Position numbers and translations under genes: made by a program. Shown piece by piece: positions 68-63,581 of a DNA stretch of 64,000 nt. How positions within the stretch are numbered: the stretch's first letter is position 1; every line of letters starts with the position of its first letter. Source of the stretch: Micromonospora sp. ATCC 39149 (GTDB lineage: Bacteria; Actinomycetota; Actinomycetes; Mycobacteriales; Micromonosporaceae); contig NZ_GG657738.1 of assembly GCF_000158815.1 (NCBI RefSeq), positions 3,324,080-3,388,079 on the forward strand, written 5' to 3'. The notes beneath the pieces are model-generated. The model ran no database searches. It saw only the letters and a program-made list of their open reading frames with translations, and was not told the DNA's origin.

Positions 68-421
68 CTATTCACCGTAGTCCTCAAACTCCCATCTACC
101 AATTCGGCCAATTTTAGCTGCCAACTCCAGCCAGCTTGACCCCTCCAGCGAATCTATCTGACGGTACAGGAAATGCTTGATGGCCTCTGGCTGGAAATTT
201 TCAACTATTAAGTAATGGCGGCCAATGAGAGGCCCGTGCTCTGCCACTCGACGACCAATCCAGGCAGGAGTGCAGACAACGATGTCGAAGGATTCGCCAC
301 TCAGCTCCCCCTTAGGCCCTACAGTCATCTGCACCAGTGCGCAGAAATCTGATGGACAACTAAGGTCCGGCAGATCCATATCTACATCAGGGCTTACGAT
401 GTGCCTAATTTCCGCTTTCAT
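68..421 (-). CDS. Imm8-type immunity protein of the RHS toxin
   Basis: Predicted 117-aa cytoplasmic antidote to the toxin tip of the RHS protein encoded just upstream. Seen: ESFDIVVCTPAWI in the first half, GRHYLIVENF in the middle and the ending GRWEFEDYGE, a layout I recognise from the Imm8 family of polymorphic-toxin immunity proteins. The ATG at 421 overlaps the toxin stop codon as ATGA, so the pair is probably translationally coupled. A start at 478 would extend 57 nt into the toxin gene without a ribosome site and was rejected. The gene is clearly AT-richer than the window average, like the toxin tip beside it, which suggests that the two were acquired together. Which toxin activity it blocks is not known. 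Confidence 0.8.
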   Translation of the reverse strand: MKAEIRHIVSPDVDMDLPDLSCPSDFCALVQMTVGPKGELSGESFDIVVCTPAWIGRRVAEHGPLIGRHYLIVENFQPEAIKHFLYRQIDSLEGSSWLELAAKIGRIGRWEFEDYGE

Positions 422-47139: not shown

Positions 47140-47970
47140 GTGACCGAGGACGGTACGGGTCGGCTCGACGACCAGGCGTTCGCCGAGTGGTTGGCCGGCG
47201 AGGCCGGCGTGGCGCTGACCGCGCTCCGCGCCGAGCAGGGCTTCGCCGACCCGAAGGCCCTCAAGGACGCGGGGGACAAGGTCTCGCACGACCTGATGTC
47301 GACCGCCCTGGCCCGGTGGCGCCCGGCCGACGCGGTGCTCTCCGAGGAGCAGGCGGACAGCCGACGGGCCTGGGCCGACGACCCGTCCGCCGGGGACCGG
47401 CCGACCCGGCTCACGGCGGACCGGGTGTGGATCATCGACCCGCTGGACGGCACCCGGGAATTCTCTGAGGAAGGGCGCGACGACTGGGCTGTGCACGTGG
47501 CACTCTGGCAGCGGTCGGCCGCCCCGGACGGCGCGCTGGTCGCCGGCGCGGTCGGCATGCCGGCCCGTACCGGCCCCGGCGGCACGCCGCTGGTCCTCGG
47601 CAACCGGGTCCCGACCGCGCCGCCCGTCGACGGGCCGCTGCGGATCGCCGTGAGCCGCAGCCGGCCGCCCGCGTTCGTGAGCGAACTGGTCGAGGGCATC
47701 GGCGCCCGCGCGGTGCCGATGGGCTCGGCCGGGGTGAAGGTCTGCGCGGTGGTCACCGGCCAGGTCGACGCGTACGTGCACGCCGGGGGCCAGTACGAAT
47801 GGGACTCGGCTGCCCCGGTCGCCGTGGCCCTCGGCGCAGGCATGCACGCGTCCCGGATCGACGGCTCACCGCTGCGCTACAACCGGGACGACCCGCGCCT
47901 TCCGGACCTGCTGGTCTGCCGTCCGGAGCACGCGGAGTCCCTGCTCGCGGCCATCGACCGCTACCGTTGA
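47140..47970 (+). CDS. cysQ: 3'(2'),5'-bisphosphate nucleotidase CysQ
   Basis: 276-aa Mg-dependent, Li-sensitive-type phosphatase that turns PAP (3'-phosphoadenosine 5'-phosphate) into AMP. Seen: SEEQADS (metal-binding Glu), WIIDPLDGTREFSEE and GGQYEWDSAAPVAVALGAG, the family motifs in order. PAP is the by-product of every PAPS-dependent sulfotransferase and inhibits them, so its place before a cluster with three sulfotransferases is meaningful (inference). GTG at 47140 with GTGAGG upstream. The glycanase gene follows after 37 bp on the same strand. Confidence 0.9.
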   Translation: MTEDGTGRLDDQAFAEWLAGEAGVALTALRAEQGFADPKALKDAGDKVSHDLMSTALARWRPADAVLSEEQADSRRAWADDPSAGDRPTRLTADRVWIIDPLDGTREFSEEGRDDWAVHVALWQRSAAPDGALVAGAVGMPARTGPGGTPLVLGNRVPTAPPVDGPLRIAVSRSRPPAFVSELVEGIGARAVPMGSAGVKVCAVVTGQVDAYVHAGGQYEWDSAAPVAVALGAGMHASRIDGSPLRYNRDDPRLPDLLVCRPEHAESLLAAIDRYR

Positions 47971-48007
47971 CGACGCCCGCTCCGGCACCGTTGAACAGAG
48001 GAGGGTC

Positions 48008-49138
48008 ATGAGTTCCGGCCCCATCGCCGCGCCCACCCTCGCCGCCCCCGACCCGACCCCGCCGCGGCGCCGGCTCGGCCGCTGGTGGCTGCTCCCGCTG
48101 ACCGCCGGCGCGCTCGTGCTGGGTACCACGGTCGCCCTGGCCACCAACGGCCACCTGCCCGGCGGGCCCGCCCCGACGGCCACCGACGCCACCGGCGGCA
48201 ACGCCGGACTCGGCCCGGCGGCCCCCGGCACCCGCCCGACGCCGAGCGGCAACGAGGGCTTCGGCGCGGGCCCCGCGTCGGGCTCGCCGAGCCCGAGCGT
48301 CAGCGGCGGGGCCACGTCCGGCGCTTTCCCGGGCGGCCGCAACACGCTGCCCGGGGCGAGCATCTACCTCAAGAGCGGGGAGAGCTTCGCCGCCGGGCTG
48401 GCCCGCTCGGACCGCAGCTACGGCCCGCTGCGCATGGTCCGGGTCTTCTACCCGGGGCTGCCGCCGTCCTGGTCGGGCAGCCGCGCCGACGTCGCCAACC
48501 GGACCGTGGTGGTCTCGTTCAAGGCGCCGCCCGGCGAGGTGGCCGCCGGCAAGCACGACTCGCGGCTCGCCGCCTGGTTCCGCTCCGTCCCGCGGGACCT
48601 CGACGTGTACTGGTCGTACTTCCACGAGCCGGAGGACGACGTCGAGCGCGGCTCGTACACCGCCGCCCAGTACCGGGCCGCGTGGAAACGCCTCGCCGGC
48701 CTCGCCGACCGGGCCGGCAACGCCCGGCTGCGATCCACGCTGATCCTGATGTGCTGGACGCTCAACCCGAACTCCCGGCGCACCTTCGAGGACTACTGGC
48801 CGGGTGGCGACGCCATCGACGTGCTCGGCTGGGACTGTTACAACAGCGGCGGCAAGTACGACCGGTACACCGACCCGGCGCAGGTCTTCACCCCGATGAT
48901 CAACAAGTCGAAGGCGCTGGGGAAGCCGTGGGGGCTCGCCGAGACCGGCAGCGTCCGCATCGCCGGGGACAGCAGCGGCACCGGCCGGGCCGCCTGGATC
49001 CGGTCGATGAGCCGGTACCTCGACGGGCAACGCCCGCTGTGGGTGGCGTACTACGACTACGAGGTCGCCGGAGGCGACTTCCGGCTCACCGACGCGCCGA
49101 GCCGGGAGGCGTGGCGGGCCTGGTGCGCCGCCTCCTGA
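48008..49138 (+). CDS. Membrane-anchored GH26-like glycanase
   Basis: 376 aa. Seen: a basic N-terminus, one membrane helix (WWLLPLTAGALVLGTTVAL), a Pro/Thr/Gly linker to about residue 110, and a TIM-barrel domain with the likely acid Glu in SYFHEPEDD and nucleophile Glu in LAETGS, both near places used by GH26 mannanases and relatives. CWTLNPNSRRTFEDYWPG and VLGWDCYNSGG line the barrel. It probably trims or cuts a polymer at the cell surface. GAGGAGGG precedes the ATG. It starts 37 bp after cysQ, so an operon is likely. Confidence 0.8.
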   Translation: MSSGPIAAPTLAAPDPTPPRRRLGRWWLLPLTAGALVLGTTVALATNGHLPGGPAPTATDATGGNAGLGPAAPGTRPTPSGNEGFGAGPASGSPSPSVSGGATSGAFPGGRNTLPGASIYLKSGESFAAGLARSDRSYGPLRMVRVFYPGLPPSWSGSRADVANRTVVVSFKAPPGEVAAGKHDSRLAAWFRSVPRDLDVYWSYFHEPEDDVERGSYTAAQYRAAWKRLAGLADRAGNARLRSTLILMCWTLNPNSRRTFEDYWPGGDAIDVLGWDCYNSGGKYDRYTDPAQVFTPMINKSKALGKPWGLAETGSVRIAGDSSGTGRAAWIRSMSRYLDGQRPLWVAYYDYEVAGGDFRLTDAPSREAWRAWCAAS

Positions 49139-49144
49139 CCGGGC

Positions 49145-50095
49145 TCAGATCCCCCGGCCGCGCTTGTGCAGCGTACGCAGGACGCGGTCGGGGTCGACGG
49201 CCCGGCTGGCCACGGCGAGGGCCAGGTACGCGCGCGGCTCCCGGGGGTTGCGCGACAGCGTGCGCCGCGCCCAGCGCACGGCCTCGCCCCGGTTGCCCAG
49301 CGCCGCCTGGGCGAACGCGATCTGGCCGCTGACCCGCGCCTCGCCGGCCGGCACGGTGGCGAACTCCGGGTACCGGCCGAGCAGCCACTGCAACGCCACG
49401 GAGATGGTCTCCCAGCGCTGGGCGAAGTACGACTGCTTGTGCCAGCGCACCGTCACGTACGGCTCGACCAGGTTGACCAGCGGGGCGTGCCGGGCGGCCC
49501 GGAGCAGGAACTCGTAGTCCTCCGCGTAGCTGCCCGGGATCTCCTCGTCGACCAGCCCGATGCCGTCGAGCAGCGCCTCCCGGCGGATCAGGAACGTCGA
49601 CGGGTGCAGCTCGGTGTGCCGGTCCCGCAGCAGGGCGGCCAGCGGCACCCGGTTGACCGGCAGCACCCGGTCGACCTGGCGGCCGTCGTAGTCGACCCGG
49701 ATGCCGCAGCTCACGAACGCGCCGTCGGGCGCGGCGGCGAGCGCCGCCACCTGCGCGGCGAGCTTGCCGGGCAGCCACTCGTCGTCGTCGTCGCAGAACG
49801 CCACGAGGTCACCGGTGGCGGCCAGGATGCCCGTGTTGCGGTTGCCGGCCAGGCCCGGGTTGCGCTGGTTGACCAGCACGGTGACCCGGGGGTCGTCGGC
49901 CAGCGACCGGTCCGGCTCGGACTGGTCGTAGACGACCACCACGTCCACCCGGCCGGGGTAGTCCTGACCGAGAATCGCGTCGAGGGCCTTGCGCAGCAGC
50001 TCGGGGCGGTCCCGGGTGGGAACCACCGCGGTCACCGACGGGTACCCGCCGACCGGCTCGGTCATTGCGTCGGTGTCGTGCACCGGCTCGGTCAT
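49145..50095 (-). CDS. GT2-family glycosyltransferase
   Basis: 316-aa cytoplasmic GT-A enzyme. Seen: VTAVVPTRDRPELLRKALDA, VDVVVVYDQSEPD, NPGLAGNRNTGIL, AFCDDDDEWLPGKL (DxD metal site) and EEIPGSYAEDYEFL. A C-terminal helical tail of about 80 residues follows. It adds one sugar to the repeat unit; donor and acceptor unknown. The ATG at 50095 overlaps the sulfotransferase stop as ATGA, and GGAGG precedes it. The opening codons for MTEPV are repeated 30 nt later, so the ATG at 50065 is a second possible start. Last gene of a four-gene minus operon. Confidence 0.92.
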   Translation of the reverse strand: MTEPVHDTDAMTEPVGGYPSVTAVVPTRDRPELLRKALDAILGQDYPGRVDVVVVYDQSEPDRSLADDPRVTVLVNQRNPGLAGNRNTGILAATGDLVAFCDDDDEWLPGKLAAQVAALAAAPDGAFVSCGIRVDYDGRQVDRVLPVNRVPLAALLRDRHTELHPSTFLIRREALLDGIGLVDEEIPGSYAEDYEFLLRAARHAPLVNLVEPYVTVRWHKQSYFAQRWETISVALQWLLGRYPEFATVPAGEARVSGQIAFAQAALGNRGEAVRWARRTLSRNPREPRAYLALAVASRAVDPDRVLRTLHKRGRGI

Positions 50096-51048
50096 TGCGC
50101 CTCCGTGGAGCCCGGGCGGCCGAGGCCGACGTATCCGTACCGCAGACGCAGGGGCAGCGTCGCGGCGCTCACCACCACCCGGCTACGCGACGGCAGGGCC
50201 GTGCGCCAGGCGTCGTCCTGCCGGACCCGCAGCGGGCCGGCGTTGAACCGCAGCGGGTTGCCGGCGATGCTGTGCGCCGGGCGCAGCGGCGCGGGCGACG
50301 GGTCCAGCACCCGCAGCGCGCCGGGGTCGTCGGGCAGGCCGGCGAAGCGGCGCAGCCGGGCGATCGTGTCGCGCGGGTCGGCGGTGAAGTCCTCGTAGCG
50401 CAGCCGGACCACCGGCACGCGGGTGGCCAGCAGGTGGAACGCGGCGTTCTGCGCGGTCCACAACTTGCTCACCGTGAACGGCGAGAAGGTCGGCATGTAC
50501 GCCTCGGCGTCCACCACCTCGGGCCGGCGTACCTGCTTCGCCCAGGAGTACGCCACCGCCCGGCTGTCCCGCACCAGGTGCAGCACCCGCAGATCGAGGT
50601 CGTCGGCCCAGCGCAGCGCGAACGCAGTGGAGGCGTGCTTGCTGGAGTCCACCACGAGCCGCGCGCCGGTCACCGCCATCGCGGCGGCGTAGATCCGGGT
50701 GTAGAGGTCGGCGTAGCGGCGCACCTCGTCGAGCTGTGCGGCGGGCAGCTCGGCCCGGGCCAGCCGGGGGATGTGCCGGGTCCGGTCGACAGCGTCCTTC
50801 AGCGCCAGCACGTCGGCGCGGTCGACCGCCGACCAGCCGCCGAAGGCGTGCTCGCCGACGCGCTGCCAGAAGTCACAGGCGGTGAACCGCTCCCCACAAC
50901 CGCACCGCTCGTCGCCGCCGAGAGCCCGTTCCCACAGGTGCACCACCTCGCCGACCGCGCAGACGTCGGGATGCTGGGCTAGGATCAGCTCCAACAGGGT
51001 GGAGCCGCTACGACCCAGCCCGCCGACGAAGAGCACCCGGGCACTCAC
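50092..51048 (-). CDS. Sulfotransferase (Sulfotransfer_3-type), first of three
   Basis: 318-aa PAPS-dependent sulfotransferase. Seen: 5'-phosphosulfate loop GGLGRSGSTLLELIL, ERCGCGERFTACDFWQRVG, 3'-phosphate loop VVDSSKHASTAFAL, VLHLVRDSRAVAYSWAK and RYEDFTADPRDTIARL. It moves sulfate to a hydroxyl of a sugar or lipid. GTG at 51048 overlaps the stop of the transferase subunit gene (GTGA), so its synthesis is coupled to it. A paralogue of the 52329 gene. Confidence 0.92.
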   Translation of the reverse strand: MSARVLFVGGLGRSGSTLLELILAQHPDVCAVGEVVHLWERALGGDERCGCGERFTACDFWQRVGEHAFGGWSAVDRADVLALKDAVDRTRHIPRLARAELPAAQLDEVRRYADLYTRIYAAAMAVTGARLVVDSSKHASTAFALRWADDLDLRVLHLVRDSRAVAYSWAKQVRRPEVVDAEAYMPTFSPFTVSKLWTAQNAAFHLLATRVPVVRLRYEDFTADPRDTIARLRRFAGLPDDPGALRVLDPSPAPLRPAHSIAGNPLRFNAGPLRVRQDDAWRTALPSRSRVVVSAATLPLRLRYGYVGLGRPGSTEAQ

Positions 51049-51641
51049 CGCCACCACCTGCGCCGCCCGGGTTCCCGGCTGGCACGGACCAGGTCCTCGA
51101 CGATCCGGCCAACCGCTGTAGCGGCGGCGACCCGGGGGTCGGGCCGGTCCGGGTCGGCGGCCAGGGCGTACGTCAGCGGGTCCGCCACGCCCTTGTCCAG
51201 CGCCTCGACCAGGTCGGCCTCGGACTCGGCCAGCCGGACCATCCCGGCCGCGCCGAGCCGGCGGGAGAAGAGCTGCTGGTGGTTGTCGACGTGCTCGTGG
51301 TGGGCCGGGTCCCTGGGCACCACGATCGGCAGGTGCCCGTGCCGGCGTGCCTCGGTGATGGTGGCGGGACCGCCGTGGCAGACCACCAGGTCCGCCTCGG
51401 TCATCGCCCGCTGGAGCTCGTCGTGGGCCAGGAACGGCACCGCGCCCGGCAGCCGGGGCGCCCGGCTGCGCCCGTGCTGCACGACGAGCCGGACCTCCGG
51501 CGCGGCGGCGTCCCGGCCAACGTGCCAGCGCTCCAGCCAGTCGACCAGCCTGTCGAAACGGTGCACGTCCGTGCCGACCATGGCCAGGATCGTGCGGGGG
51601 GCCGGGGAGTCGCCGCGCTGGCGCGGAATCGGCAGGTTCAC
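51045..51641 (-). CDS. Alg13/PssE-like glycosyltransferase catalytic subunit
   Basis: 198-aa, one half of a GT-B enzyme. Seen: ILAMVGTDVHRFDRLVDWLE, RLVVQHGRSRAPR, AMTEADLVVCHGGPATITEA (nucleotide-sugar binding) and LPIVVPRDPAHHEHVDNHQQ. It pairs with the Alg14-like membrane subunit encoded just upstream to transfer GlcNAc, glucuronate or another sugar to a lipid-linked intermediate. GTG at 51641 overlaps the upstream stop (GTGA). Confidence 0.9.
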   Translation of the reverse strand: MNLPIPRQRGDSPAPRTILAMVGTDVHRFDRLVDWLERWHVGRDAAAPEVRLVVQHGRSRAPRLPGAVPFLAHDELQRAMTEADLVVCHGGPATITEARRHGHLPIVVPRDPAHHEHVDNHQQLFSRRLGAAGMVRLAESEADLVEALDKGVADPLTYALAADPDRPDPRVAAATAVGRIVEDLVRASREPGRRRWWR

Positions 51642-52096
51642 AGCAGGTTTCCCACCACGGTCGCCTTTGGATAGAGCCGGCGCTGCTCCTCCCACTGCAC
51701 GAGCATCGCCGAGAGGAAGGGCCGACACAGCCGGGCCGAGAGCGTCGGGGTGTCGATCCGGTCGTAGACCTCGATGTAGACCGTGGGGATGCCGCGCAGC
51801 CGGGCCACCACCACGAAGGGCAGGGCGACCCCGGCACCGGTGGTGACCACCGCGGCGACATCCCGCCCGCGGAACACCCGCACGGCGAGCCAGAGGTTGC
51901 GGGCCAGGTTCTTCAGGTTGCGGGTGGTCGGGTGGTACGCCCAGACCACGTCCTCGCCGTCGAGCAGTGATCGGGCGTCCGGGGTGTCGAAGGTCACCCA
52001 GGAGCGGGCCCGGTTGCGGTACCACGGTGCGAGCGCCACCAGTTGGGCGAGGTGCCCGCCGCTGGAACCGACGAGCATGACTTCACCAGACTCCAC
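51638..52096 (-). CDS. Alg14/PssD-like glycosyltransferase membrane subunit
   Basis: 152-aa partner of the Alg13-like protein. Seen: EVMLVGSSGGHLAQLVALAP (Alg14 signature), WAYHPTTRNLKNLARNLWLA, VVTTGAGVALPFVVVARLRG and YIEVYDRIDTPTLSARLC. GTG at 52096 has GGAGG at nine bases; ATG at 52078 is the alternative. First gene of the minus operon Alg14-Alg13-sulfotransferase-GT2. In many bacteria these two are fused or paired in exopolysaccharide loci. Confidence 0.88.
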   Translation of the reverse strand: MESGEVMLVGSSGGHLAQLVALAPWYRNRARSWVTFDTPDARSLLDGEDVVWAYHPTTRNLKNLARNLWLAVRVFRGRDVAAVVTTGAGVALPFVVVARLRGIPTVYIEVYDRIDTPTLSARLCRPFLSAMLVQWEEQRRLYPKATVVGNLL

Positions 52097-52328
52097 GTAC
52101 ACCCGCCTCCCGAGGGCCCCACCGCGCCCCGGGACGCGCCCACCGGGGGCGGTCGACCGGACGGCGCGACGCCGCCACAATGTAGCGGCCCTGCGAACAG
52201 AAACATAAGTGGCGCTCATCATCATCCGACCTGTCGGATGGTTGCCAGCAGGACCTTTCGCCAATGCCGAGCTCCCCCGTCCCGCGCCTAGACTGCCGCT
52301 GACATCCACCGGGGCGAGGGGATCGCGG

Positions 52329-53312
52329 ATGACCGACCAGACGGCCGAGGCAACGCAGGGTACCGGCAACGGGGTGACCCCCGACCCGGTCACCGTCCTC
52401 TACGTCTGCGGCATGCCGCGCAGTGGCTCCACACTGCTCGACCTGATGCTCGGCCAGTTCGTCGGGCACTGCGACGTCGGCGAGCTGTTCTACCTGTGGC
52501 AGTCCGGTGTCGAGCGGAACTTCCGGTGCGCCTGCGGTGAGCACTTCGACGCGTGCCCGTTCTGGGGCGAGGTGGGCCGGCGGGCGTACGGCGGATGGTC
52601 GCAGATCGACGTGGCCGACGTACGGGCGCTGCAACGCCGGGTCGATGCCACCGCCAAGATCCCGCTGATCGTGAACCCGGGGATGTCCGCTGCCTTCCGG
52701 CGGGACCTGGACCGCTACACCGAGCTGCTGACGAGGCTCTACCGGGCGGTGGGGGAGGTGTCCGGGGCGCGGGTCGTGGTCGACTCCACCAAGCGCCCGT
52801 CGCTGGCGTACATCCTGGCCCGGACTCCGCAGGTCGACCTGCGGCTGGTGCACGTGCTGCGCGACCCGCGCGGGGTGGCGTACTCGTGGAGCCAGGTGGT
52901 GGAGCTGCCCGAGGGCACCTCGACCAAGGGGCGGATGAACCAACGGTCGGCGCGGCTGACCGCCCGGCGCTGGGTCACCGTCAACGCGATGGTCGCCGCG
53001 CTGGGCCGCCGTGGCGTGCCCCGGGTCACCGTCCGGTACGAGGACCTGGTCCGCGACCCGCGCGGCGAGCTGGGCCGGATCGCGGCGCTGACCGCCGACG
53101 TGACCGGCGTCGTCGATCCGCTGGAGTTCCTCCGGGACAACGAGTTCGAGCAGGCCGGCTCGCACGCGGTGGCCGGCGGGCGGATCCGGATGCGTAGCGG
53201 CCCGATCACCCTGGCGCTGGACGAGAAGTGGCGCCGCGAGTACGCCCCGGGCCCCCGCCGCCTGGTCGGGGCGATGACCTGGCCGATGCGCCGCCGCTAC
53301 GGCTACCGCTGA
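52329..53312 (+). CDS. Sulfotransferase (Sulfotransfer_3-type), second of three
   Basis: 327-aa PAPS-dependent sulfotransferase. Seen: CGMPRSGSTLLDLMLGQFVG (5'-phosphosulfate loop), CACGEHFDACPFWGEVGRR, VVDSTKRPSLAYILA, LVHVLRDPRGVAYSWSQVV and RYEDLVRDPRGELGRI. It shares pattern and length with the 50092 gene, so the two are paralogues with likely different acceptor positions. ATG at 52329 is chosen; upstream ORF sequence is not conserved. It is divergent from the Alg14-like gene. Confidence 0.92.
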   Translation: MTDQTAEATQGTGNGVTPDPVTVLYVCGMPRSGSTLLDLMLGQFVGHCDVGELFYLWQSGVERNFRCACGEHFDACPFWGEVGRRAYGGWSQIDVADVRALQRRVDATAKIPLIVNPGMSAAFRRDLDRYTELLTRLYRAVGEVSGARVVVDSTKRPSLAYILARTPQVDLRLVHVLRDPRGVAYSWSQVVELPEGTSTKGRMNQRSARLTARRWVTVNAMVAALGRRGVPRVTVRYEDLVRDPRGELGRIAALTADVTGVVDPLEFLRDNEFEQAGSHAVAGGRIRMRSGPITLALDEKWRREYAPGPRRLVGAMTWPMRRRYGYR

Positions 53313-53390
53313 CGCCCCTGTTCGGCGTCCGGCTCGGGCCGGCCGGCTCCCGGCTCGGCCGAAGGCGTCGGAACCGGCTCGGCCGAAGGC

Positions 53391-53444
53391 GTTAGGAAGG
53401 GACCCTTCCTATACCGAAAGCGTTAACAGGGGGCCCTTCCTTAC
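53391..53444. repeat. Intergenic double-hairpin repeat, copy 3
   Basis: GTTAGGAAGGGACCCTTCCT, then ATACCGAAAGC, then GTTAACAGGGGGCCCTTCCT. Most complete copy. It lies between convergent genes and overlaps the GT14 stop codon. Two 19-bp direct copies of CCGGCTCGGCCGAAGGCGT lie just before it. Confidence 0.88.
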
Positions 53445-54370
53445 CGGGCGGCGGCGGCCAGGTGGGCGTCGAGGGTGTCGAGCAGCTCCGGGGCCCGCTC
53501 GTAGTCGAACTTGCGGGCGAAATGCGCCCCGCTGGCCAGCGCGCGGGGCAGGTCCTCGGCGGTCAGCGACTTGGGGTGGTTGAAGGTGCTGTTCCGGAAG
53601 TCGAAGTAGCGCTTGCAGTCTGGCACCAGGTCGAAGCGGCCGGCGCTGCACACGATGGTCTGGAAGACCGCCTCGACCGGGGAGAGGCAGTGCCGGAAGT
53701 ACTCCACCACGTCCGGCCGCCGGTCGAAGTACTCCCGCAGGTAGGCCACCACCGGCCAGCTCAGCGAGGAGAACGCCGACCCGCCGTGCAGCCGCAGGTC
53801 GTCCCCGAACGGGGTGCGGGCCCGGCGGCCGACCGCCAGCCCGTACGACACGTGCACCCGGACCAACGGCTGCACCCGGTTGACCGCCTGGAGCGGGCGG
53901 AGCAGCTTCTTGCCCCGGGGGCTGAGCCGGAGCAGCCGCCGGTGCTGGAAGTGGTAGCGGGAGCGGACCCGGCTGCGTGGCCAGTGGCTGTCCGGCCCAT
54001 TCGCGTCCCAGTACTCCATGAACCCGTCGGCGCCCGAGTCGACCAGCTCGGCCTCGCACTCGCCGAGCGGGCGGAGGGGGTAGTCCTGACCGGTGATGTT
54101 CACCAGCCAGTCGACCTGCACCCCCTCGCCGTTCAGCCAGTCGACGGCAGCCATGTAGCGGTCTACATGACTGAAGTCACCGTATCCACCCTCGTGCATC
54201 TGCACGACGACGTCGGGCAGTGACCGCAGCTCGGCGAGGTCCAGCGGGGCACCGTTCACGTCGTGACTGACGTGCACAATGCTGTCTGGACTGTACTTTT
54301 TCACCGCGTGTACCAGCCGGTTCAGCTGCTCGGGTGACCGGTGGCTCTGGATGTGGTAGCAAAACCGCAC
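53441..54370 (-). CDS. GT14-type (Core-2/I-branching) glycosyltransferase
   Basis: 309-aa transferase similar to the beta-1,6-N-acetylglucosaminyl / xylosyl group. Seen: CYHIQSHRSPEQLNRLVHAV, VHVSHDVNGAPLDL, QMHEGGYGDFSHVDRYMAAV, WLVNITGQDYPLRPL, LHGGSAFSSLSWPVVAYLRE and SPVEAVFQTIVCSAG. These fit the family well. In animals such enzymes branch mucin glycans or start proteoglycan chains; bacterial members occur in capsule loci. Start GTG at 54370 after GGAGG. It is convergent with the second sulfotransferase and divergent from the Wzz-like gene. Confidence 0.9.
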   Translation of the reverse strand: MRFCYHIQSHRSPEQLNRLVHAVKKYSPDSIVHVSHDVNGAPLDLAELRSLPDVVVQMHEGGYGDFSHVDRYMAAVDWLNGEGVQVDWLVNITGQDYPLRPLGECEAELVDSGADGFMEYWDANGPDSHWPRSRVRSRYHFQHRRLLRLSPRGKKLLRPLQAVNRVQPLVRVHVSYGLAVGRRARTPFGDDLRLHGGSAFSSLSWPVVAYLREYFDRRPDVVEYFRHCLSPVEAVFQTIVCSAGRFDLVPDCKRYFDFRNSTFNHPKSLTAEDLPRALASGAHFARKFDYERAPELLDTLDAHLAAAAR

Positions 54371-54405
54371 CCGCTCATCCTCCCCCGCGACGCCGCCGCT
54401 GAGAA

Positions 54406-54479
54406 GCGAACCTTCGTCGGCTTCCCCTGACCGCTCGGATCAGGGAGACTCAAGGTTCGCCGTGGCACCGCTCGCCACG
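54406..54479 (+). promoter_or_regulatory. Nested hairpins in leader of the Wzz-polymerase operon
   Basis: Outer arms GCGAACCTT (54406-54414) and AAGGTTCGC (54452-54460) enclose CCCTGA (54425) / TCAGGG (54440). A second hairpin, CGTGGC/GCCACG, spans 54461-54479. They end 41 bp before the first start codon, so they may regulate translation or transcription. Confidence 0.5.
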
Positions 54480-54520
54480 GACGACTGGCCGGCCCGGTCC
54501 AAAGGGAGCGACACAGCCCG

Positions 54521-56371: not shown

Positions 56372-57360
56372 ACCGCCGGCGCGTCTTGGGCAACACGCTC
56401 GCGGTGGCGCTGGTCGCCGCCCTCGGCGCGGGTTGCGCCGAGGAACAGCCGCCCGGGGCCACCGACCTGGTCGACCCGGGCTCCCCGGCCCCCCGGCCCA
56501 GTCCCACCCCGAGCCTGCCGGCCGCCCCGCTGTCCGGAAAGCCGGTCGCCGAGGCGGTGGCGGGCCGCCAGGCGGTGGTGGTGCCGCTGCGGGTGACCGC
56601 CGGCACGAGCCCCGTGGGGCTGGCCGAGGCCGACCTGGTCTACCAGGAGTTCGCCGAGTCGGAGAGCCTGCACCTGACAGCGGTCTACCAGTCCCGGGAC
56701 GCCGCGAGGGTGGGCCCGGTCGCGGAGATCCGCCCCGTGGACATCCGCACGGTCGGCGTGCTGCGCCCCTTCGTCGGGTACGCGGGCGGGCCTACCGGCT
56801 TTCTCAACCAGTTCGCCGCCGCCGAACTGGAGGGGGTCACCCCGGCGCAGCGCGCCGCCGCGTTCCCGTCCGGCCAGGCGTCGACCGCCGCGCTGCGCCA
56901 GGCGGCCCCGAAGGGTGGCGCAGCGCCGACCCAGGTCCTCGACCACGCCGCCCCGGGCGCCCCGCTGGGCAGCCAGGGCGTCAGCCCGGCCGGCAAGCTG
57001 ACCGTCGCCGCCCCCGGGCACCCCACGCAGACCTGGGCGTACGACGCGGCCAGCTCGTCGTGGCGCGGCAAGATCGGCAAGGTCACGGTGAGCGTCGCCT
57101 CGGTCGTCGTGCTCACGATGGAATACCGCACCCTCACCGTGCGCAAGCCCAGCCACCGCTCGCTGCCCGGGGCGAACGTCTACGGCTCCGGCGCGGCGCT
57201 CGTGGTGTCCGGCCCGTCCAGCGCCAAGGCGAGGTGGAGCAAGCCCGGGCAGCGGCTGGTCTGCAACATCACCGACGAGGGCGGCTTCCAGGTCCGGCCA
57301 CAGCCCGGCCCCGCCTGGGTGATCTACGCCCCGAAGAACGCCAAGGTCAGCGTGACATGA
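56368..57360 (+). CDS. DUF3048 (YerB-like) lipoprotein
   Basis: 330 aa. Seen: lipobox LGAGC (Cys at about 23), a linker, and the DUF3048 pattern VVPLRVTAGTSP, LAEADLVYQEFAESESLHLT, VGPVAEIRPVDIRTV, FVGYAGG and a C-terminal VYGSGAALVVSGP. Extracytoplasmic. YerB-type proteins have no agreed activity; some are linked to wall or replication genes. Its presence inside a polysaccharide operon is unusual. Overlapped at both ends: GTGA with the Wzz-like gene and ATGA with the polymerase. Confidence 0.88.
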   Translation: MNRRRVLGNTLAVALVAALGAGCAEEQPPGATDLVDPGSPAPRPSPTPSLPAAPLSGKPVAEAVAGRQAVVVPLRVTAGTSPVGLAEADLVYQEFAESESLHLTAVYQSRDAARVGPVAEIRPVDIRTVGVLRPFVGYAGGPTGFLNQFAAAELEGVTPAQRAAAFPSGQASTAALRQAAPKGGAAPTQVLDHAAPGAPLGSQGVSPAGKLTVAAPGHPTQTWAYDAASSSWRGKIGKVTVSVASVVVLTMEYRTLTVRKPSHRSLPGANVYGSGAALVVSGPSSAKARWSKPGQRLVCNITDEGGFQVRPQPGPAWVIYAPKNAKVSVT

Positions 57361-58856
57361 CGACGGCCGCCCCGCTCCGGCCCGCACCGGGGCCGGAGCC
57401 GGCACCGGCGGGACGGCGTCCGGCCGACCCGCCGCGAACCCCGCCGGCAGCGCCGGCCCGGCGCTGGTCGCTGCGGCTGCCCCCCGCCTGGCCGGTGACC
57501 GCGCTCTTCGTGCTCTACCCGGTGTGGTGGGCGCTGGGCCTTCCCTCGTTCATCTTCGCCATCCTCGCCGTCCCGATGGCCTTCCGGCTCTACCGGCGCG
57601 GCAACGTCAAGGTGCCGCCGGGCTTCGGGCTCTGGCTGATCCTGCTGGCCTGGGTGGTGCTGTCCGGGCTGATGCTCGGCATCACCGCGCCCAACACGCT
57701 CGCCCCGAGCGGCTCCGGCCGGTACATCGGCTGGGGCATCCGGGTGATGAACTACACCGCCCTGACGGTGACGATGCTCTACGTCCTCAACCTCAGCGAG
57801 CGGGAGCTGCCCCGGGGACGGCTGGTGAAGCTGTTCGGCTTCATGGCCGTGATCACCGTCATCGGCGGGTACGTGGGGGCGCTGTTCCCGCAGCTCAAGT
57901 TCGTCGCGCCGCTGAACTACATCCTGCCCTCCGCCATCGCCAAGGAACCGTTCGTCAACCGGCTGATGCACGTCGAGGTCGCCCAGGTGCAGGAGGTGCT
58001 CGCCGGGGAAGCCAGTTCGCCCCGCCCGGCCGCCCCCTTCGAGTACACCAACACCTGGGGCGAGAACATGGCGATCCTGCTGATCTGGTTCATCGTCGGC
58101 TGGGTGGTCCTCGGCCGGGGGCCACGCCGGCTCACCGGTTACCTCGTGGTGGTCGCCGCCGTCTTCCCGATCGTCTACTCGCTCAACCGGGGGCTGTGGA
58201 TCGGGCTGGTGATCGGCGCGGTGTACGTCGCGGTGCGGCTGGCCCTGCGTGGTCGGGTCGTCGTGTTGGTCGGGTTGGCGCTGGCCACCGGGCTGATGGG
58301 GGTGGCGGTGCTCGCGTCCCCGCTGGGCGACCTGCTCAACGAACGCATGGCCAACGGGCACAGCGACGACATCCGGGCCACCCTGTCCAGCGGTGCGGTC
58401 GAGGCGGCCAACCACTCGCCGGTGCTCGGCTACGGTGGCAACCGGGCCCTGATCGGCAGCAACCGGTCGATCGCGATCGGCAAGTCGGCCGACTGCAAGC
58501 AGTGCGGCAACCGGGAGTTGGGCAGCAACGGGCAGGTGTGGAACCTGCTGACCGGCCAGGGCTGGGTGGGCGCATTCTGCTACAGCGCGTTCTTCCTGTG
58601 GTGCCTGTGGCGGTTCCGGCACGACCACACCCCGATCGGCATCGCCGGCAGCCTGGTGCTGATCCTGATGCTGTTCTTCCAGTTCCTCTACGGCTCGTTG
58701 AACACCACCCTGGCGTACGGGCTGATCAGCGTGGCGCTGCTCGCCCGCAACGACCTGCACCTGCGCGCGGCGCGCCGCGAGGCCCGGCTCGCCGCCGTCG
58801 AGGCCGCGGTCGCCCCGACCGCACCCCGTGCCCTGCCCGAACGGCGGTTCCGCTGA
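57357..58856 (+). CDS. O-antigen-polymerase/ligase-like protein (Wzy-type)
   Basis: 499-aa polytopic membrane protein (about 11 hydrophobic segments) that joins repeat units on the outer face of the membrane. Seen: an N-terminal Pro-rich tail, YTNTWGENMAILLIWFIVGW, PIVYSLNRGLWIGLVIGAV (Wzy_C-type pattern) and the loop NHSPVLGYGGNRALIGSNRS between late helices. Starts at ATG overlapping the DUF3048 stop; its own TGA overlaps the next ATG as TGATG. Confidence 0.85.
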   Translation: MTTAAPLRPAPGPEPAPAGRRPADPPRTPPAAPARRWSLRLPPAWPVTALFVLYPVWWALGLPSFIFAILAVPMAFRLYRRGNVKVPPGFGLWLILLAWVVLSGLMLGITAPNTLAPSGSGRYIGWGIRVMNYTALTVTMLYVLNLSERELPRGRLVKLFGFMAVITVIGGYVGALFPQLKFVAPLNYILPSAIAKEPFVNRLMHVEVAQVQEVLAGEASSPRPAAPFEYTNTWGENMAILLIWFIVGWVVLGRGPRRLTGYLVVVAAVFPIVYSLNRGLWIGLVIGAVYVAVRLALRGRVVVLVGLALATGLMGVAVLASPLGDLLNERMANGHSDDIRATLSSGAVEAANHSPVLGYGGNRALIGSNRSIAIGKSADCKQCGNRELGSNGQVWNLLTGQGWVGAFCYSAFFLWCLWRFRHDHTPIGIAGSLVLILMLFFQFLYGSLNTTLAYGLISVALLARNDLHLRAARREARLAAVEAAVAPTAPRALPERRFR

Positions 58857-60085
58857 TGCTCACCCCACCCCCCGGCGCCGACGCGCGCGGCGCGTACCTG
58901 CCCGAGTTGGCCGGCCTGGTCTGGCCGGCACCGGCCCGACCGGCGCTGCGGCGCGGCGGCCGGGCCGGGTTCGCGGTGGTGCCCTCGGCCGCGCGGCCCC
59001 GGCTGCTGGTGCCGGCCGGCTCCCGGCGGGCGGCGGCCGGCGCGGTCCGGCACTCCACCGAGGCGCAGAGCGCGAAGGCCCGGCTGCGCCGCGCGGTGCT
59101 GGCCGCCGCGTTCCGCACCGGGCTCGGGCGGCTCGCCTTCCGCGACCGGCTGGTGGTCGACGCGGGCGGCGACGCGCTCGACGCGCACCTGGCCGCCGTG
59201 CTGGGCCGCCCGGCGCTGCTGAGCATCCACATCGGGCCGGCGCGGGCCAACCGCAAACCGGTGGTCCAGCTCCTCGACGCCGCTGGCGACCCGATCGGGT
59301 ACGCGAAGCTCGGCGTCGACCCGCTCACCCGGGCCCTGGTCGAGGCGGAGGCGGCGGCGCTGGCCCGGTTGGCGAAACTCGACCTGCCCGGCGTGCAGGT
59401 GGCCGAGGCGCTGCACCACGGCGTCTGGGGCGGGCACGCCCTGTTGGTGCAGAGTGCCCTGCCGGTGGGGCTGCCCCGGGCCGCGCCCGCGCCGGCCGCC
59501 GAGGCCGAACGGGCAGCCATGGTCGCGGTGAGCCGCTGCGTCGGCGTGGAGCGCCGCCCGTACGCGGGCAGCGCCCACGACCGGCGGCTCCGCGACGAGT
59601 TGGCGGCGCTCGGGGACCGGCCGGAGGCGGCCCGGCTGCGCGCGGTGCTGGCCGAGGTCCGCCGCGTCGACCCGGTGCTGGCCCTGGGGGCCTGGCACGG
59701 CGACTGGAACGGCGGCAACAGCGCGGCCCTGGCCGACGGCCGGGTGCTGGTGTGAGACTGGGAACGGTTCGCCGACGACGTGCCGCTGGGCTTCGACGCC
59801 CTGCACCGGCGGGTGCAGACGGCGATCACCCGCGCCGGGGTGGAGCCCCGGGCGGCGGCGGGGCGGCTGATCGCCGCGGCGGCGGACGACCTGGCCCCGT
59901 TCGGCCAGCCGGCCGGGGTCGCCGACCTGGTGGCGGTGCTCTACCTGGTCGAGTTGGCGGCGCGCTACCTGCGCGACCGGCAGGCCGAGGCGGGGGCCCG
60001 GCTGGGACACGTGGACGCCTGGCTGCTGCCGGCGGTGGAGGATCACCTGGCCGGGCGGCCGGGTGCGGGAGGAGTGGCGAAGTGA
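58856..60085 (+). pseudogene. APH-type kinase gene interrupted by in-frame TGA
   Basis: In-frame reading from the ATG at 58856 gives 299 aa ending ...GRVLV at TGA 59753-59755. The same frame then continues DWERFADDVPLGFDAL to the stop at 60085, giving 409 aa. Seen: VVQLLDAAGDPIGYAKLGVD, the catalytic loop WHGDWNGGNS (HxDxxxxN) before the TGA, and DWE, the metal-binding Asp, after it. A Trp codon (TGG) is the natural reading. Without read-through the protein lacks its metal Asp and C-lobe, so it should be inactive. Start overlaps the polymerase stop; its final stop overlaps the next start (GTGA), so the gene was intact when the operon formed. A sequencing error is not excluded. Confidence 0.75.
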
Positions 60086-60942
60086 CGCTGGTCAAGGCAC
60101 AGGCGCGGCGCGCGGTGCGGTCGGTGAGTCGGACGTATGGCCGGTGGACCGCCGGTTCGCGGCTCGCCCCCGACTTCCTCATCGTGGGCGCGCAGCGCTG
60201 CGGCACGACGTCGCTGTTCAAGACCCTGTCGCAGCACCCGGCGGTGCTGCCGGCGGTCTACCACAAGGGCGTGCACTACTTCGACACCGGCTACGACCGG
60301 GGGCTGGACTGGTACCTCGGGCACTTCCCGACGGTGCGCCGCGCCGAGGCGGTGCGGCAGCAGGTCGGGGTGCGCGGGGTGACCGGGGAGTCGAGCCCGT
60401 ACTACATGTTCCACCCCCTCGCGGGCGAGCGGATCGCGAAGGACCTGCCGGGCGTGCGGCTGCTGGTGCTGCTACGCGACCCGGTGGAGCGGGCGTACTC
60501 GGCGCACACCCACGAGGCGGCCCGGGGCTTCGAGACGGAGGGCTTCGAGCGGGCCCTGGAGCTGGAGCAGGAGCGGATCGCCGGGGAGCGGGAGCGGCTG
60601 CTCGCCGACCCGACGGCGCACAGCCACCACTTCCAGCACAACGCGTACCTGACCCGGGGTCAGTACGTGGAGCAGCTCGAACGCCTTGAGTCGATCTTCG
60701 GCCGGGACCGGCTGCACGTGATCGACGCGGACGACTTCTTCGCCGAGTCCCGGCCGGCGTTCGACGCGGTCTGCGACTTCCTCGGCCTGCCGCGCTGGGC
60801 GGACATCTCGTTCGGCAAGCACAACGCGCGGTCCCGTTCGCCGATGGACCCGGCGCTGCGGGCCCGGCTGGAGGAGCACTTCGCCCCGTACGACGAGCGG
60901 TTGAGCACCTGGTGGGGACGCGTGCCGTCGTGGCGACGGTAG
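60082..60942 (+). CDS. Sulfotransferase (Sulfotransfer_1 / heparan-type), third of three
   Basis: 286-aa PAPS-dependent enzyme of a different subtype from the other two. Seen: FLIVGAQRCGTTSLFKTLSQ (5'-phosphosulfate loop), KGVHYFDTGYDRGLDWYLG, GESSPYYMFHP, KLLVLLRDPVERAYSAHTHE-type 3'-phosphate loop (LRDPVERAYSAH) and FFAESRPAFDAVCDFLGLP. The pattern GAQRCGTTSL with KGxHYFD is shared with animal heparan sulfate/NDST-type sulfotransferases. GTG at 60082 overlaps the broken kinase stop; GGAGGAG upstream. Confidence 0.92.
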   Translation: MTLVKAQARRAVRSVSRTYGRWTAGSRLAPDFLIVGAQRCGTTSLFKTLSQHPAVLPAVYHKGVHYFDTGYDRGLDWYLGHFPTVRRAEAVRQQVGVRGVTGESSPYYMFHPLAGERIAKDLPGVRLLVLLRDPVERAYSAHTHEAARGFETEGFERALELEQERIAGERERLLADPTAHSHHFQHNAYLTRGQYVEQLERLESIFGRDRLHVIDADDFFAESRPAFDAVCDFLGLPRWADISFGKHNARSRSPMDPALRARLEEHFAPYDERLSTWWGRVPSWRR

Positions 60943-62465
60943 CCCCGGCCCGGTCGGGCGCCGGCGAGCTGGGCGGAGCGGCCCGGCACGGGGTCGCGAA
61001 CCTGCTCGGGGTGGCGGTCGCGGCGGTCGCCGGGTTCGGCCTGAACATCGTCGTCACCCGGGGCTGGTCCATGTCGGACGCCGGCCTCTTCTTCGCCGCC
61101 ACCAGCGCGTTCATGATCGCATACGCGGCGGCGCGGCTGGGTACCGGCGTCGGCGCGGTCTACTTCATCAGCCGCTACCGGGCCCTCGGCCAACCGGAGC
61201 GCCTGCGCGCGTCGGTGCTGGTCGGGCTGCTGCCGGTGCTGGGGGTCGGCACGCTGATCGCGGTGGCCGGCTGGTGGGCGGCTCCCCGGATCGTGGCGCT
61301 GACGTTCGACGAGCCGGTGCCCGGTGCGGTGCGCGCGCTGCGGGTGCTGCTGGTCTTCGTGCCGGTGGCCGCGCTCTGCGACTTCGCCCTGGCCGCCTGC
61401 CGGGGCTTCGGCAAGATGCGCCCGCTGCTGTTGATCGAGCGGTTCGGCCGGACCGGGCTGCAACTGGTCGGGGTGGGGCTCGCCGCCGTCCTCGGCCTCT
61501 CGGCGACGACGGCGCTGCCGCTGGCCTGGGTCGCACCGTACCTGCCGGCCGCGCTGGTCGGCACCGTGTGGCTGGCCCGGCTGGTCCGGCGCGCGGAGCG
61601 GGGCGCGCAGGCCCCGGCGGTGTCGCTGCGCGAGGAGTTCGGCCCGTACTGGCGCTACAGCGGGCCCCGCGCGCTGAGCGGCCTGGCCCAGATGGTGGTG
61701 CAGCGGCTCGACATCGTGCTGCTCGGCGCGCTGCGCGGGCTGTCCGAGGCGGCGCTCTACACGGCGGCCACCCGGTTCCTCGCCCTCGGGCAGCTCTCCG
61801 GGCAGGCGCTCTCCACCGCCGTGCAGCACCGGCTCGCCGAGCACATGGTCCGCGACGACCGGGACGCGGCCGGCCGGCTCTACCAGGCGGCCACCGGCTG
61901 GCTGGTGCTGCTGGCCTGGCCGGCGTACCTGCTGTTCGCGGTGTTCGCCGAGCCGATGCTGCACCTGTTCGGCGACGGGTACGCCGCCGGGGCGCGGGTG
62001 ACCGTCTTCCTCGCCCTGACCATGCTGGTGGCCACCGGCTGCGGCATGGTAGACACAGTGCTCAACATGGCCGGCCGAACGTCCTGGACGTTCTACAACG
62101 CGCTGGCCGGCACGCTGGTCAACGTGGTGCTGAACGTGCTGCTCATCCCACGTTTTGGCATCATGGGCGCGGCGGTCGCCTGGTCGTCGTCCATCCTGAT
62201 CACCAACCTGGTGCCGCTGGCCCAGCTGCACCACGCATACCGGCTGCACCCGTTCGGCCGGGGCACGCTGGCCGCCGCCGGGCTGGCGGTGGCGTGCTTC
62301 GGCGTGCCGGCGCTGATCGCCCGCGCGGTGCTCGACGCCGGGCCGGTCACCCTGGCGGTGCTCGCGGTACTCGGGACCACCGGGTACGCCGCCGGGGCAT
62401 GGCGGCTACGCCGGGTGCTCCAGCTCGACGCGCTGCGGGCCCTGCGCCGGGGCCGCCGACGCTGA
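60912..62465 (+). CDS. Wzx-like polysaccharide flippase (MVF/MATE-type)
   Basis: 517-aa polytopic protein with about 12-14 helices that moves lipid-linked repeat units across the membrane. Seen: ANLLGVAVAAVAGFGLNIVV, WRYSGPRALSGLAQMVVQRL, IVLLGALRGLSEAALYTAAT and VNVVLNVLLIPRFGIMGAAV, all standard for the family. It overlaps the end of the third sulfotransferase gene by 31 bp if GTG at 60912 is used; GTG at 60930 is an alternative and reduces this. Confidence 0.88.
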   Translation: MGTRAVVATVAPARSGAGELGGAARHGVANLLGVAVAAVAGFGLNIVVTRGWSMSDAGLFFAATSAFMIAYAAARLGTGVGAVYFISRYRALGQPERLRASVLVGLLPVLGVGTLIAVAGWWAAPRIVALTFDEPVPGAVRALRVLLVFVPVAALCDFALAACRGFGKMRPLLLIERFGRTGLQLVGVGLAAVLGLSATTALPLAWVAPYLPAALVGTVWLARLVRRAERGAQAPAVSLREEFGPYWRYSGPRALSGLAQMVVQRLDIVLLGALRGLSEAALYTAATRFLALGQLSGQALSTAVQHRLAEHMVRDDRDAAGRLYQAATGWLVLLAWPAYLLFAVFAEPMLHLFGDGYAAGARVTVFLALTMLVATGCGMVDTVLNMAGRTSWTFYNALAGTLVNVVLNVLLIPRFGIMGAAVAWSSSILITNLVPLAQLHHAYRLHPFGRGTLAAAGLAVACFGVPALIARAVLDAGPVTLAVLAVLGTTGYAAGAWRLRRVLQLDALRALRRGRRR

Positions 62466-62543
62466 GGCCCGCTCGGGTCTTGTTCACGAGAACGTCCGCC
62501 GCCGGGTACACCGGTGGCACCGGTACGGGAAGGTGCGGCAACG

Positions 62544-63581
62544 ATGAAGCGGTTCCACAGGGCGGTGGCGCTCCTGCTCGGGTCGGCGCTGGCCGTCACG
62601 GCCTGCTCCGAGTCGGCCCCGGACTTCGTGCCGCCCCCGGCCGGCACCGCGCCGACGGTGTCCCCCCGCGCGACGGACGACCTGGCCACCACCGGCCGGG
62701 GCCCGGAGCTGCCCGAGAAGGGCGTCTGGCTGGGCGCGTGGGTGAAGCCGGACTGGCAGACCCCGGAGGGGCGGGTCGAGGCGCTGACCGCGTTCGCCGA
62801 CCAGACCCGCGGCAAGGTGACCCTGGCGCACATGTTCCACGAGTGGGAGGACGACTTCCCCGGCCCCACCGAGTACGCCTTCCAGGCCACCGGGAAGCTC
62901 CAGATGATCTCCTGGTCGGGTGCCGACACCCGGTCCATCCGCGACGGCGTCTACGACCAGCTCATCCGGCAGCGGGCCGAAAAGATCAAGCAGTTCGGGG
63001 TGCCGCTGCTGCTGCGCTGGCGGTGGGAGATGGACCGGCCGAACCTGGCCCAGAGCGTCCACTCGCCGGAGGACTACGTCGCCGCCTGGAAGCGCATCCG
63101 GGGCATCTTCACCGAGGTCGGCGCCACCAACGCCGCCTTCGTCTGGTGCCCGCACGTGCAGGGCTTCGTCGACCCGTCCCGCAACGCCGCGGCGTACTAC
63201 CCCGGCGACGACCAGGTCGACTGGCTCTGCACCGATGTGTACCCGGGCAAGGAGTTCGAAGGCTTCGCCCCCCAGATGGACACCTTCATGGCGTTCGCCG
63301 CCCAGCACCCGCGTCCGGTAGTGATCGGCGAGTTCGGGGTCACCTACCCGGGCGCGCCCGGCCAGCGCGGCGCGTGGCTGCGCGAGGCCGGCGACTACAT
63401 CAAGCGGCACCCGCAAATCAAGGCCGTCGTCTACTTCGCCGCGAAGCAGACGAAGCCCGCGTACGACAGCACCTTCAACGACGACCCGGAGGGGCTGGCC
63501 GCGTTCCAGGAACTGACGGCGGACCCGTGGTTCTCCGCACCGCCGCCGCCCACCCCCGCGCACGGTCCGCGCGCCCAGTGA
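62544..63581 (+). CDS. GH26-like lipoprotein glycanase
   Basis: 345 aa. Seen: lipobox LAVTAC (Cys at 21), a linker, then a TIM barrel with GVWLGAWVKPDWQTPEG, LLRWRWEMDRPN (acid/base Glu), FVWCPHVQGFVDPSRN and VVIGEFGVTYPGA (nucleophile Glu), a set typical of GH26 mannanase-like enzymes. Membrane-anchored on the outside. With the glycanase at 48008 it flanks the polysaccharide cluster and may release or edit the polymer. ATG at 62544 starts 78 bp after the flippase gene. Confidence 0.88.
   Translation: MKRFHRAVALLLGSALAVTACSESAPDFVPPPAGTAPTVSPRATDDLATTGRGPELPEKGVWLGAWVKPDWQTPEGRVEALTAFADQTRGKVTLAHMFHEWEDDFPGPTEYAFQATGKLQMISWSGADTRSIRDGVYDQLIRQRAEKIKQFGVPLLLRWRWEMDRPNLAQSVHSPEDYVAAWKRIRGIFTEVGATNAAFVWCPHVQGFVDPSRNAAAYYPGDDQVDWLCTDVYPGKEFEGFAPQMDTFMAFAAQHPRPVVIGEFGVTYPGAPGQRGAWLREAGDYIKRHPQIKAVVYFAAKQTKPAYDSTFNDDPEGLAAFQELTADPWFSAPPPPTPAHGPRAQ

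Follow-up and report, generated by a model that had tools for sequence, protein, structure and literature searches.

What a 15-gene locus of Micromonospora sp. ATCC 39149 makes, given that three sulfotransferases are encoded there among the components of a polysaccharide assembly system, is the question considered here. The window, meaning the whole 64,000-nucleotide stretch of DNA that was analysed, corresponds to C4:3324080-3388079 of the 6.8-Mb genome, and open reading frame and domain scans place the locus between a CysQ-like gene beginning at 47140 and the second of two GH26-like genes, which ends at 63581 (Table 1). There is good, although not complete, reason to conclude that this locus builds a sulfated extracellular polysaccharide via the Wzx/Wzy route, with sulfation in the cytoplasm. 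By gene content, it appears to represent, in Micromonospora, a variant of the Actinoplanes missouriensis wps-1 system (AMIS_7280-7380; Tezuka and Ohnishi, June 2026; PMC13390465). A sulfated Wzx/Wzy polymer had been predicted in an initial annotation of the window, and it is still the best reading of the domains, the gene order and the co-occurrence with synthesis of 3'-phosphoadenosine 5'-phosphosulfate (PAPS), all of which are observed; every chemical step, including the presence of sulfate on the polymer, is deduced from them.

The first step is the identity of the genes. The sulfotransferases, labelled ST-A, ST-B and ST-C in this report, fall into the two subtypes initially proposed (Sulfotransfer_3 for the first two, heparan-type for the third), and all of them exceed their Pfam cut-offs; ST-A, scanned minus its first residues, reaches 39.5 bits against a cut-off of 27. 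None of the three has a hydrophobic segment by hydropathy, as expected for enzymes acting on cytosolic PAPS. The CysQ assignment also held, with the Mycobacterium tuberculosis 3'-phosphoadenosine 5'-phosphate (PAP) phosphatase 5djf as the closest solved structure (2.3e-69) and inositol phosphatases only near 1e-6, though the protein scores 87.5 bits against NCBIfam TIGR01331, under the curated cut-off of 228.8. The Wzx, Wzy, Wzz-like and GT2 assignments survive as well, the Wzz-like match falling narrowly below its cut-off. What had been called an Alg13/14-like transferase does belong to that family, but consists of two genes, PssE- and PssD-like; the latter reaches 102.6 bits against NCBIfam PssD (cut-off 110) and also resembles the glucuronosyltransferase WelK at 68 bits, far under the WelK cut-off. 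Two genes had been overlooked, encoding the DUF3048 protein and the kinase-fold protein.

Both of the GH26-like glycanases initially named are present, but the matches behind them are weak, although the Actinoplanes italicus counterpart passes the GH26 cut-off at 22.9 bits. The first copy, which is found in seven of the 19 compared relatives' loci, has a single hydrophobic segment by its N end and so would be secreted or anchored, while the N end of the second copy looks lipoprotein-like when judged by eye. Hydropathy further indicates eight hydrophobic segments in the Wzy-like polymerase, two in the Wzz-like protein and one at the N end of the DUF3048 protein.

Table 1. Genes of the locus, with positions in the window and the match or motif behind each assignment
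Gene product	Position	Strand	Evidence
CysQ-like 3'-phosphoadenosine 5'-phosphate phosphatase	47140..47970	+	Inositol_P 5.9e-28
GH26-like glycanase, first copy	48008..49138	+	GH26 14.2 bits, under 20.2 cut-off
GT2 glycosyltransferase (WpsA counterpart)	49145..50095	-	Glycos_transf_2 9.2e-24
ST-A, Sulfotransfer_3 (WpsB counterpart)	50092..51057	-	Sulfotransfer_3 9.9e-10
PssE/Alg13-like glycosyltransferase subunit	51045..51641	-	Glyco_tran_28_C 1.6e-16
PssD/Alg14-like glycosyltransferase subunit	51638..52078	-	Alg14 1.5e-8
ST-B, second Sulfotransfer_3 sulfotransferase	52329..53312	+	Sulfotransfer_3 3.9e-15
GT14-family glycosyltransferase relative	53441..54370	-	Profile against 3otk 1.9e-12, XylT1 1.2e-8
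Wzz-like polysaccharide co-polymerase (WpsK counterpart)	54521..56371	+	Wzz 24.3 bits against cut-off 25.5
DUF3048 protein	56368..57360	+	DUF3048 3.2e-11, DUF3048_C 8.5e-8
Wzy-like polymerase (WpsJ counterpart)	57357..58856	+	Wzy_C 6.1e-8; 33 bits against cut-off 31.7
APH/fructosamine-kinase-fold protein (WpsI counterpart)	58856..60085	+	HGDW and WDWERF motifs; fold of relative's copy; in-frame TGA 59753-59755
ST-C, heparan-sulfotransferase-like (WpsH counterpart)	60082..60942	+	Sulfotransfer_1 1.1e-11
Wzx flippase (WpsG counterpart)	60912..62465	+	MatE 2.1e-20, Polysacc_synt_3 3.3e-8; above cut-off
GH26-like glycanase, second copy (WpsE counterpart)	62544..63581	+	GH26 19.5 bits against cut-off 20.2

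Whether these genes belong together was judged from three sets of loci: 19 family loci (L047-L064 and L066), chosen by hand from ST-B matches in the family; 80 named loci, the best of 331 confirmed stretches obtained by searching named genomes with the kinase alignment; and class loci, stretches from 40 of the 69 kinase-positive genomes (at 1e-8) in a 394-genome class sample. Because the named and class loci were picked by kinase similarity, their fractions are not population frequencies. All seven members of a core (Wzz, Wzy, kinase, ST-C, Wzx, ST-A and GT2) are present in 16 of 19 family, 66 of 80 named and 18 of 40 class loci. The three family misses are a 6-kb contig (L066) and two loci whose kinase lies beyond the fetched stretch (L053 and L056). 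Among the 80 named loci, ST-C, Wzx and Wzy are each present in 79, ST-A in 70 and a GH26-like gene in 75; the locus without ST-C (L134) is cut at a contig end, and L164 is among the other contig-end misses. Since the same set recurs across the family, as the initial annotation had suggested checking, it is not a product of chance. Pairwise distances of the seven families also correlate, with r from 0.87 to 0.97 over 100 loci, values that stand without a control gene for comparison.

The spread of the system is wide but uneven. The titles of the named loci contain 22 genera by hand count, of which 21 presumably belong to the Micromonosporaceae and the other is Modestobacter; four further named loci are metagenome assemblies, including Streptosporangiales and Solirubrobacterales. 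A kinase match at 1e-40 was obtained in 223 of 250 family genomes, and strong matches (<1e-100) in about 165 of the 250 by hand count. Within Micromonospora, 13 of the 63 genomes listed have a strong match and the other matches lie between 1e-48 and 1e-59, so that the system appears near-general in several genera and patchy in this one. ST-B relatives are detected at 1e-10 in 201 of the 250 family genomes, and counterparts of ST-B stand in five of 19 named Micromonospora loci (the stretches L101, L102 and L109 end short of its place); in sequence comparisons, ST-B is thus seen in part of Micromonospora only. The best scores of a model of the window's ST-B among named loci are from M. haikouensis (L100; 716 bits) and from M. 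okii and M. rubida (675 bits each).

A shared neighbourhood alone would also be expected if the sulfotransferases acted off the polymer, on a glycolipid or small metabolite. Bacterial sulfotransferases acting on lipo-oligosaccharides are known from rhizobia and mycobacteria (PMC8205485), and polyketide and tyrosine sulfotransferases are among the solved structures that match the ST-A/ST-B profile. In A. missouriensis, moreover, deletion of wpsB left sporangium shape normal, with released spores cut about tenfold (PMC13390465). However, in 107 of the 114 loci with both genes, no more than 400 bases separate ST-C from the kinase gene and the two share a strand, ST-A and GT2 belong to the core together with Wzx and Wzy, and deletion of wpsH resembled deletion of the whole cluster, squashed sporangia being reported after loss of wpsA, C, G, H, I, J or K (PMC13390465). 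Off-polymer action is therefore considered quite improbable, and sulfation of the polymer itself is the reading retained.

The second line of evidence is the supply of PAPS. A PAPS synthetase gene is inside the stretch in 50 of the 80 named loci, and in 36 of the 80 it immediately precedes Wzz, within 300 bases and in the same orientation. For comparison, a simple estimate puts the chance that a single-copy gene of an 8-Mb genome lies no more than 10 kb from a chosen point at about 1 in 400. The A. italicus locus (L152) has the published wps-1 order with PAPS synthetase first, except that the position of the WecG-type gene matches no Pfam family. Loss of AMIS_7390, the sulfate adenylyltransferase/APS kinase gene adjoining wps-1 in A. 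missouriensis, caused a severe defect that was unexpected to the authors (PMC13390465; APS is adenosine 5'-phosphosulfate). If PAPS for the cluster comes from this gene, the mutant's sporangium defect may reflect loss of PAPS for sulfation, with loss of sulfur assimilation as the alternative.

The initial annotation had found no gene for PAPS synthesis in the window, which is correct, and had proposed a genome search for cysC, cysD and cysN. A single APS kinase match was obtained in the genome. It lies outside the window, in a 518-residue protein with PUA, ATP-sulfurylase-like (Sat-like) and APS kinase parts (L010:7748-9301), about 0.9 Mb from the locus rather than adjoining it as in wps-1; CysD and CysN were looked at through PAPS_reduct domain matches only. 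The Sat-like half matches ATP sulfurylase weakly (47.5 bits), and the QxRN...HxxH pattern, taken here to be that of active ATP sulfurylases, is absent from the compared stretch. To judge from these sequences, this half may no longer work as an ATP sulfurylase, and APS may be supplied by CysD/CysN instead. The same half contains a non-canonical RPLHRPQL stretch in 46 of 53 rows among those listed. Two PAPS_reduct matches have identical scores (G000:C4:655378-656049 and 4265540-4266211), perhaps marking a duplicated segment. At the other end of the sulfate cycle, CysQ is a neighbour of the cluster in the window, as it is in five of 19 family, eight of 80 named and four of 40 class loci, many of the stretches ending before its place.

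Several observations weigh against a sulfated Wzx/Wzy polymer as the product. PAPS synthetase is found in none of the 19 Micromonospora loci L097-L115, although a twentieth locus titled Micromonospora (L169) does have it. The GH26 and Wzz matches score under their curated cut-offs. In the class loci, ST-C is present in 35 of 40, and Wzy, kinase, ST-C and Wzx occur together in 31, but in five the kinase stands without ST-C: two are full stretches (L188 and L196), two short contigs (L195 and L206) and one a different cluster (L216). ST-C lacks the base glutamate and one lysine of heparan sulfotransferases, and a TGA interrupts, in this genome, the kinase gene that A. missouriensis requires. Three LytR-CpsA-Psr genes stand in a row 31-35 kb beyond the end of the window (L009:12611-16177). 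Finally, a sulfated polysaccharide was predicted by the authors of the wps-1 study themselves and was stated to await proof (PMC13390465).

The different cluster just mentioned, L216:7893-19904 of genome G003, comes from the same genus. A weaker kinase homologue there accompanies PssDE, propeller, Wzz, GT2 and Wzy genes beside alaS/aroE-like genes (named by eye), and no sulfotransferase was found in the stretch examined.

The active site of ST-C is odd; residues were counted in the 100 loci that have all seven core genes. Profile matches of ST-C are to bacterial 3rnl (7.3e-30), 3-OST-5 (1.1e-20) and NDST1 (1.5e-20). The phosphosulfate-binding loop is kept, as are the 3'-phosphate arginine and serine in 100 of 100 sequences. 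The NDST1 active-site residues are presumably K614, E642 and K676, with E642 as the catalytic glutamate; at these positions ST-C has arginine (100), glycine (100) and serine, alanine or phenylalanine (92, 7 and 1). In 3rnl, the best solved match, lysine and glutamate are retained at the first two. By its sequence, ST-C is a heparan-type sulfotransferase by descent, but because glycine replaces the catalytic glutamate, its catalysis must differ if it is active; a nearby histidine, present in 98 of 100, could serve as the base.

These substitutions, together with the residues retained in 3rnl, might instead indicate that ST-C is a PAP- or PAPS-binding protein derived from a sulfotransferase, leaving ST-A, and in this locus ST-B, to sulfate. 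This is regarded as unlikely, given the preserved phosphosulfate loop, the invariant arginine and serine and the near-invariant histidine. The strong phenotype reported on loss of wpsH (PMC13390465) likewise implies that ST-C does something needed. An ST-C that sulfates with an altered mechanism is therefore preferred. The site of ST-A is more conventional, with the P-loop arginine in 99 of 99 ungapped rows and the 3'-phosphate arginine and serine in 100 and 95 of 100. A glutamate after the P-loop is likewise found in 99 of 99 ungapped rows; its equivalence to the base of tyrosine sulfotransferases (presumably E99) was judged by eye only, the available alignments ending ahead of this residue.

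The initial annotation had also named a GT14 enzyme and placed it, with the heparan-type sulfotransferase, close to the chemistry of animal glycosaminoglycans. No Pfam family matches the GT14 gene even at an E value of 1, yet a profile of it, built from 13 sequences, matches the core-2 N-acetylglucosaminyltransferase 3otk and xylosyltransferase 1 (Table 1), which bears out the assignment. A fold model gives the same top matches at low confidence (predicted local distance difference test score, pLDDT, of 62), and was used only beside the sequence profile. The two homologies behind the proposed closeness are therefore real, but it is limited by the missing base glutamate of ST-C.

A pathway consistent with these assignments can be outlined. 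A sugar would first be put on the lipid carrier by a Bac_transf priming transferase; priming outside the locus is likely because no Bac_transf enzyme is detected in the window, while three are found in the genome, one of them about 15 kb past the window's end. PssD/PssE, GT2 and, in this subclade, GT14 would extend the chain in the cytoplasm, where ST-A, ST-B and ST-C would move sulfate from PAPS onto the lipid-linked repeat and CysQ would destroy the PAP by-product. The repeat would then be flipped by Wzx and polymerised by Wzy, with Wzz setting the length, and the GH26-like enzymes would trim or release the polymer outside the cell. Four UDP-glucose-dehydrogenase-type genes score above cut-off in the genome, and glucuronate in the product is possible on this sequence evidence.

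The LytR-CpsA-Psr family attaches polymers to the cell wall, and the three genes beyond the window leave room for a wall-bound product. The polymer could accordingly be a wall-anchored one of the teichuronic acid type rather than a released exopolysaccharide or capsule, a suggestion that suits a Gram-positive organism and the resemblance, far under cut-off, of the PssD-like protein to WelK. Such a product is considered rather unlikely: no LytR-CpsA-Psr domain is among the Pfam matches of the locus itself, the Wzx/Wzy/Wzz layout is of the exopolysaccharide type, and the presence of GH26-like enzymes points to a free polymer that is remodelled. An extracellular polysaccharide that is not wall-bound thus remains the preferred product.

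Whether this particular strain makes it may depend on the kinase gene. The HGDW and WDWERF motifs of this gene are conserved, although no Pfam family rises above noise for a relative's intact copy and the alignment finds no solved relative by sequence. The copy was modelled at pLDDT 90, and a fold search with the model leads to FN3K and aminoglycoside kinases (APH); the substrate is perhaps a sugar of the repeat unit. In the window, the in-frame TGA comes 20 residues past HGDW, whereas the stop lies 120-121 residues past it in all 20 relatives checked. At least 24 further genomes of the family have kinase matches in which stops were flagged, but the 20 that were fetched all read through to the natural end, as do the aligned kinase stretches of L064, L199 and L213, so the internal stop is shared by none of those examined.

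The TGA represents either gene loss in the strain or an assembly error. Because the kinase gene is broken, the locus of this strain may be inactive unless the assembly errs, and the whole could be a decaying remnant without a product. The remaining locus genes are open, however, and about 90-97% identical to those of genome G249, and an isolated stop in a single assembly could be erroneous, so a remnant seems improbable and a functional locus is favoured.

Some neighbouring genes deserve brief mention. A beta-propeller protein (DUF5122, Rax2-like), running from 63917 of the window to L008:2398, adjoins the second GH26-like gene and has a relative in 26 of the 80 named loci. Farther downstream (L008:3478-5958) are genes of the nucleotidyltransferase, iron-containing-alcohol-dehydrogenase and CDP-alcohol phosphatidyltransferase types, which may form an activated alcohol phosphate; the second of these is glycerol-1-phosphate dehydrogenase-like by eye. 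An RHS-repeat protein of 2182 residues that carries a pretoxin HINT domain (418-6966 of the window, minus strand) has no relation to the locus.

The kind of system described here has already been proposed in print, in June 2026 (PMC13390465), and the impression in the initial annotation that sulfated capsules are not described for this family has to be qualified, since the wps-1 cluster had been predicted to make a sulfated polysaccharide. The wps-1 study was the one paper found on this system, and listings from an open-access library showed no sulfated Micromonospora polysaccharide. What is new is the spread of the system, the Micromonospora variant with ST-B, GT14 and PssDE, the unusual ST-C active site, the connection with PAPS synthesis and a likely reason for the AMIS_7390 defect. 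If the reading is right, many soil actinomycetes make a sulfated polysaccharide and their developmental matrix would be sulfated. Soluble sulfotransferases of bacterial origin, in two subtypes, would also become available for the synthesis of sulfated sugars, as would a GT14 relative.

Micromonospora forms single spores and not sporangia, and a need for the cluster in making sporangia or spores has been shown for A. missouriensis only. A wider proposal, offered tentatively and with well under even confidence, is that the locus represents a sulfated-glycan system of old date, inherited as a unit together with a PAPS supply of its own and present in actinobacteria far beyond Actinoplanes, in which ST-C acts on lipid-linked repeats with a rebuilt active site. 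Such a system would predate sporangia and provide a general matrix for spores or hyphae, and one Micromonospora subclade would have made its product glycosaminoglycan-like through GT14, PssD/E (possibly of the glucuronosyltransferase type) and a third sulfotransferase.

Comparison with known systems, made by description, places the locus closest to wps-1. The published cluster encodes, from A to D, a GT2 enzyme, a Gal/GlcNAc/GalNAc-type (galactose, N-acetylglucosamine or N-acetylgalactosamine) sulfotransferase, a WecG-type transferase and a DUF4262 protein; from E to H, a GH26 protein, a methyltransferase, Wzx and a heparan-type sulfotransferase; and from I to K, a kinase-like protein, Wzy and Wzz. 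Deletion of wpsD had no effect, and the cluster deletions could not be complemented (PMC13390465). The window shares with wps-1 the GT2 enzyme, the ST-A-type and heparan-type sulfotransferases, GH26, Wzx, the kinase-like protein, Wzy and Wzz. Unlike in wps-1, no WecG/TagA transferase, methyltransferase or DUF4262 protein is among the Pfam matches of its locus genes. PssD/PssE, the third sulfotransferase, GT14, DUF3048, the second GH26-like gene and CysQ are found in the window only, while wps-1 has an adjacent PAPS synthetase, AMIS_7390, that the window lacks.

More distant systems resemble the locus in part. Bacterial sulfated polysaccharides have been described as confined to cyanobacteria (PMC8205485, PMC13390465), a statement that is too narrow because the capsule of Vibrio sp. 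KMM 8419, a marine gammaproteobacterium, is a sulfated polymer with sulfotransferases in its cluster (PMC11641403). That capsule is of the ABC-transporter type, not Wzx/Wzy. The synechan (xss) system of Synechocystis is like the window in joining Wzx/Wzy with two sulfotransferases of distinct subfamilies, and synechan was shown by analysis to carry sulfate; it differs in having eight glycosyltransferases and its own regulators, and in being cyanobacterial (PMC8205485). Among animal enzymes, the GT14 profile matches both C2GnT and xylosyltransferase 1, and the ST-C profile matches 3-OST-5 and NDST1 at about 1e-20, yet ST-C is closer to the bacterial 3rnl.

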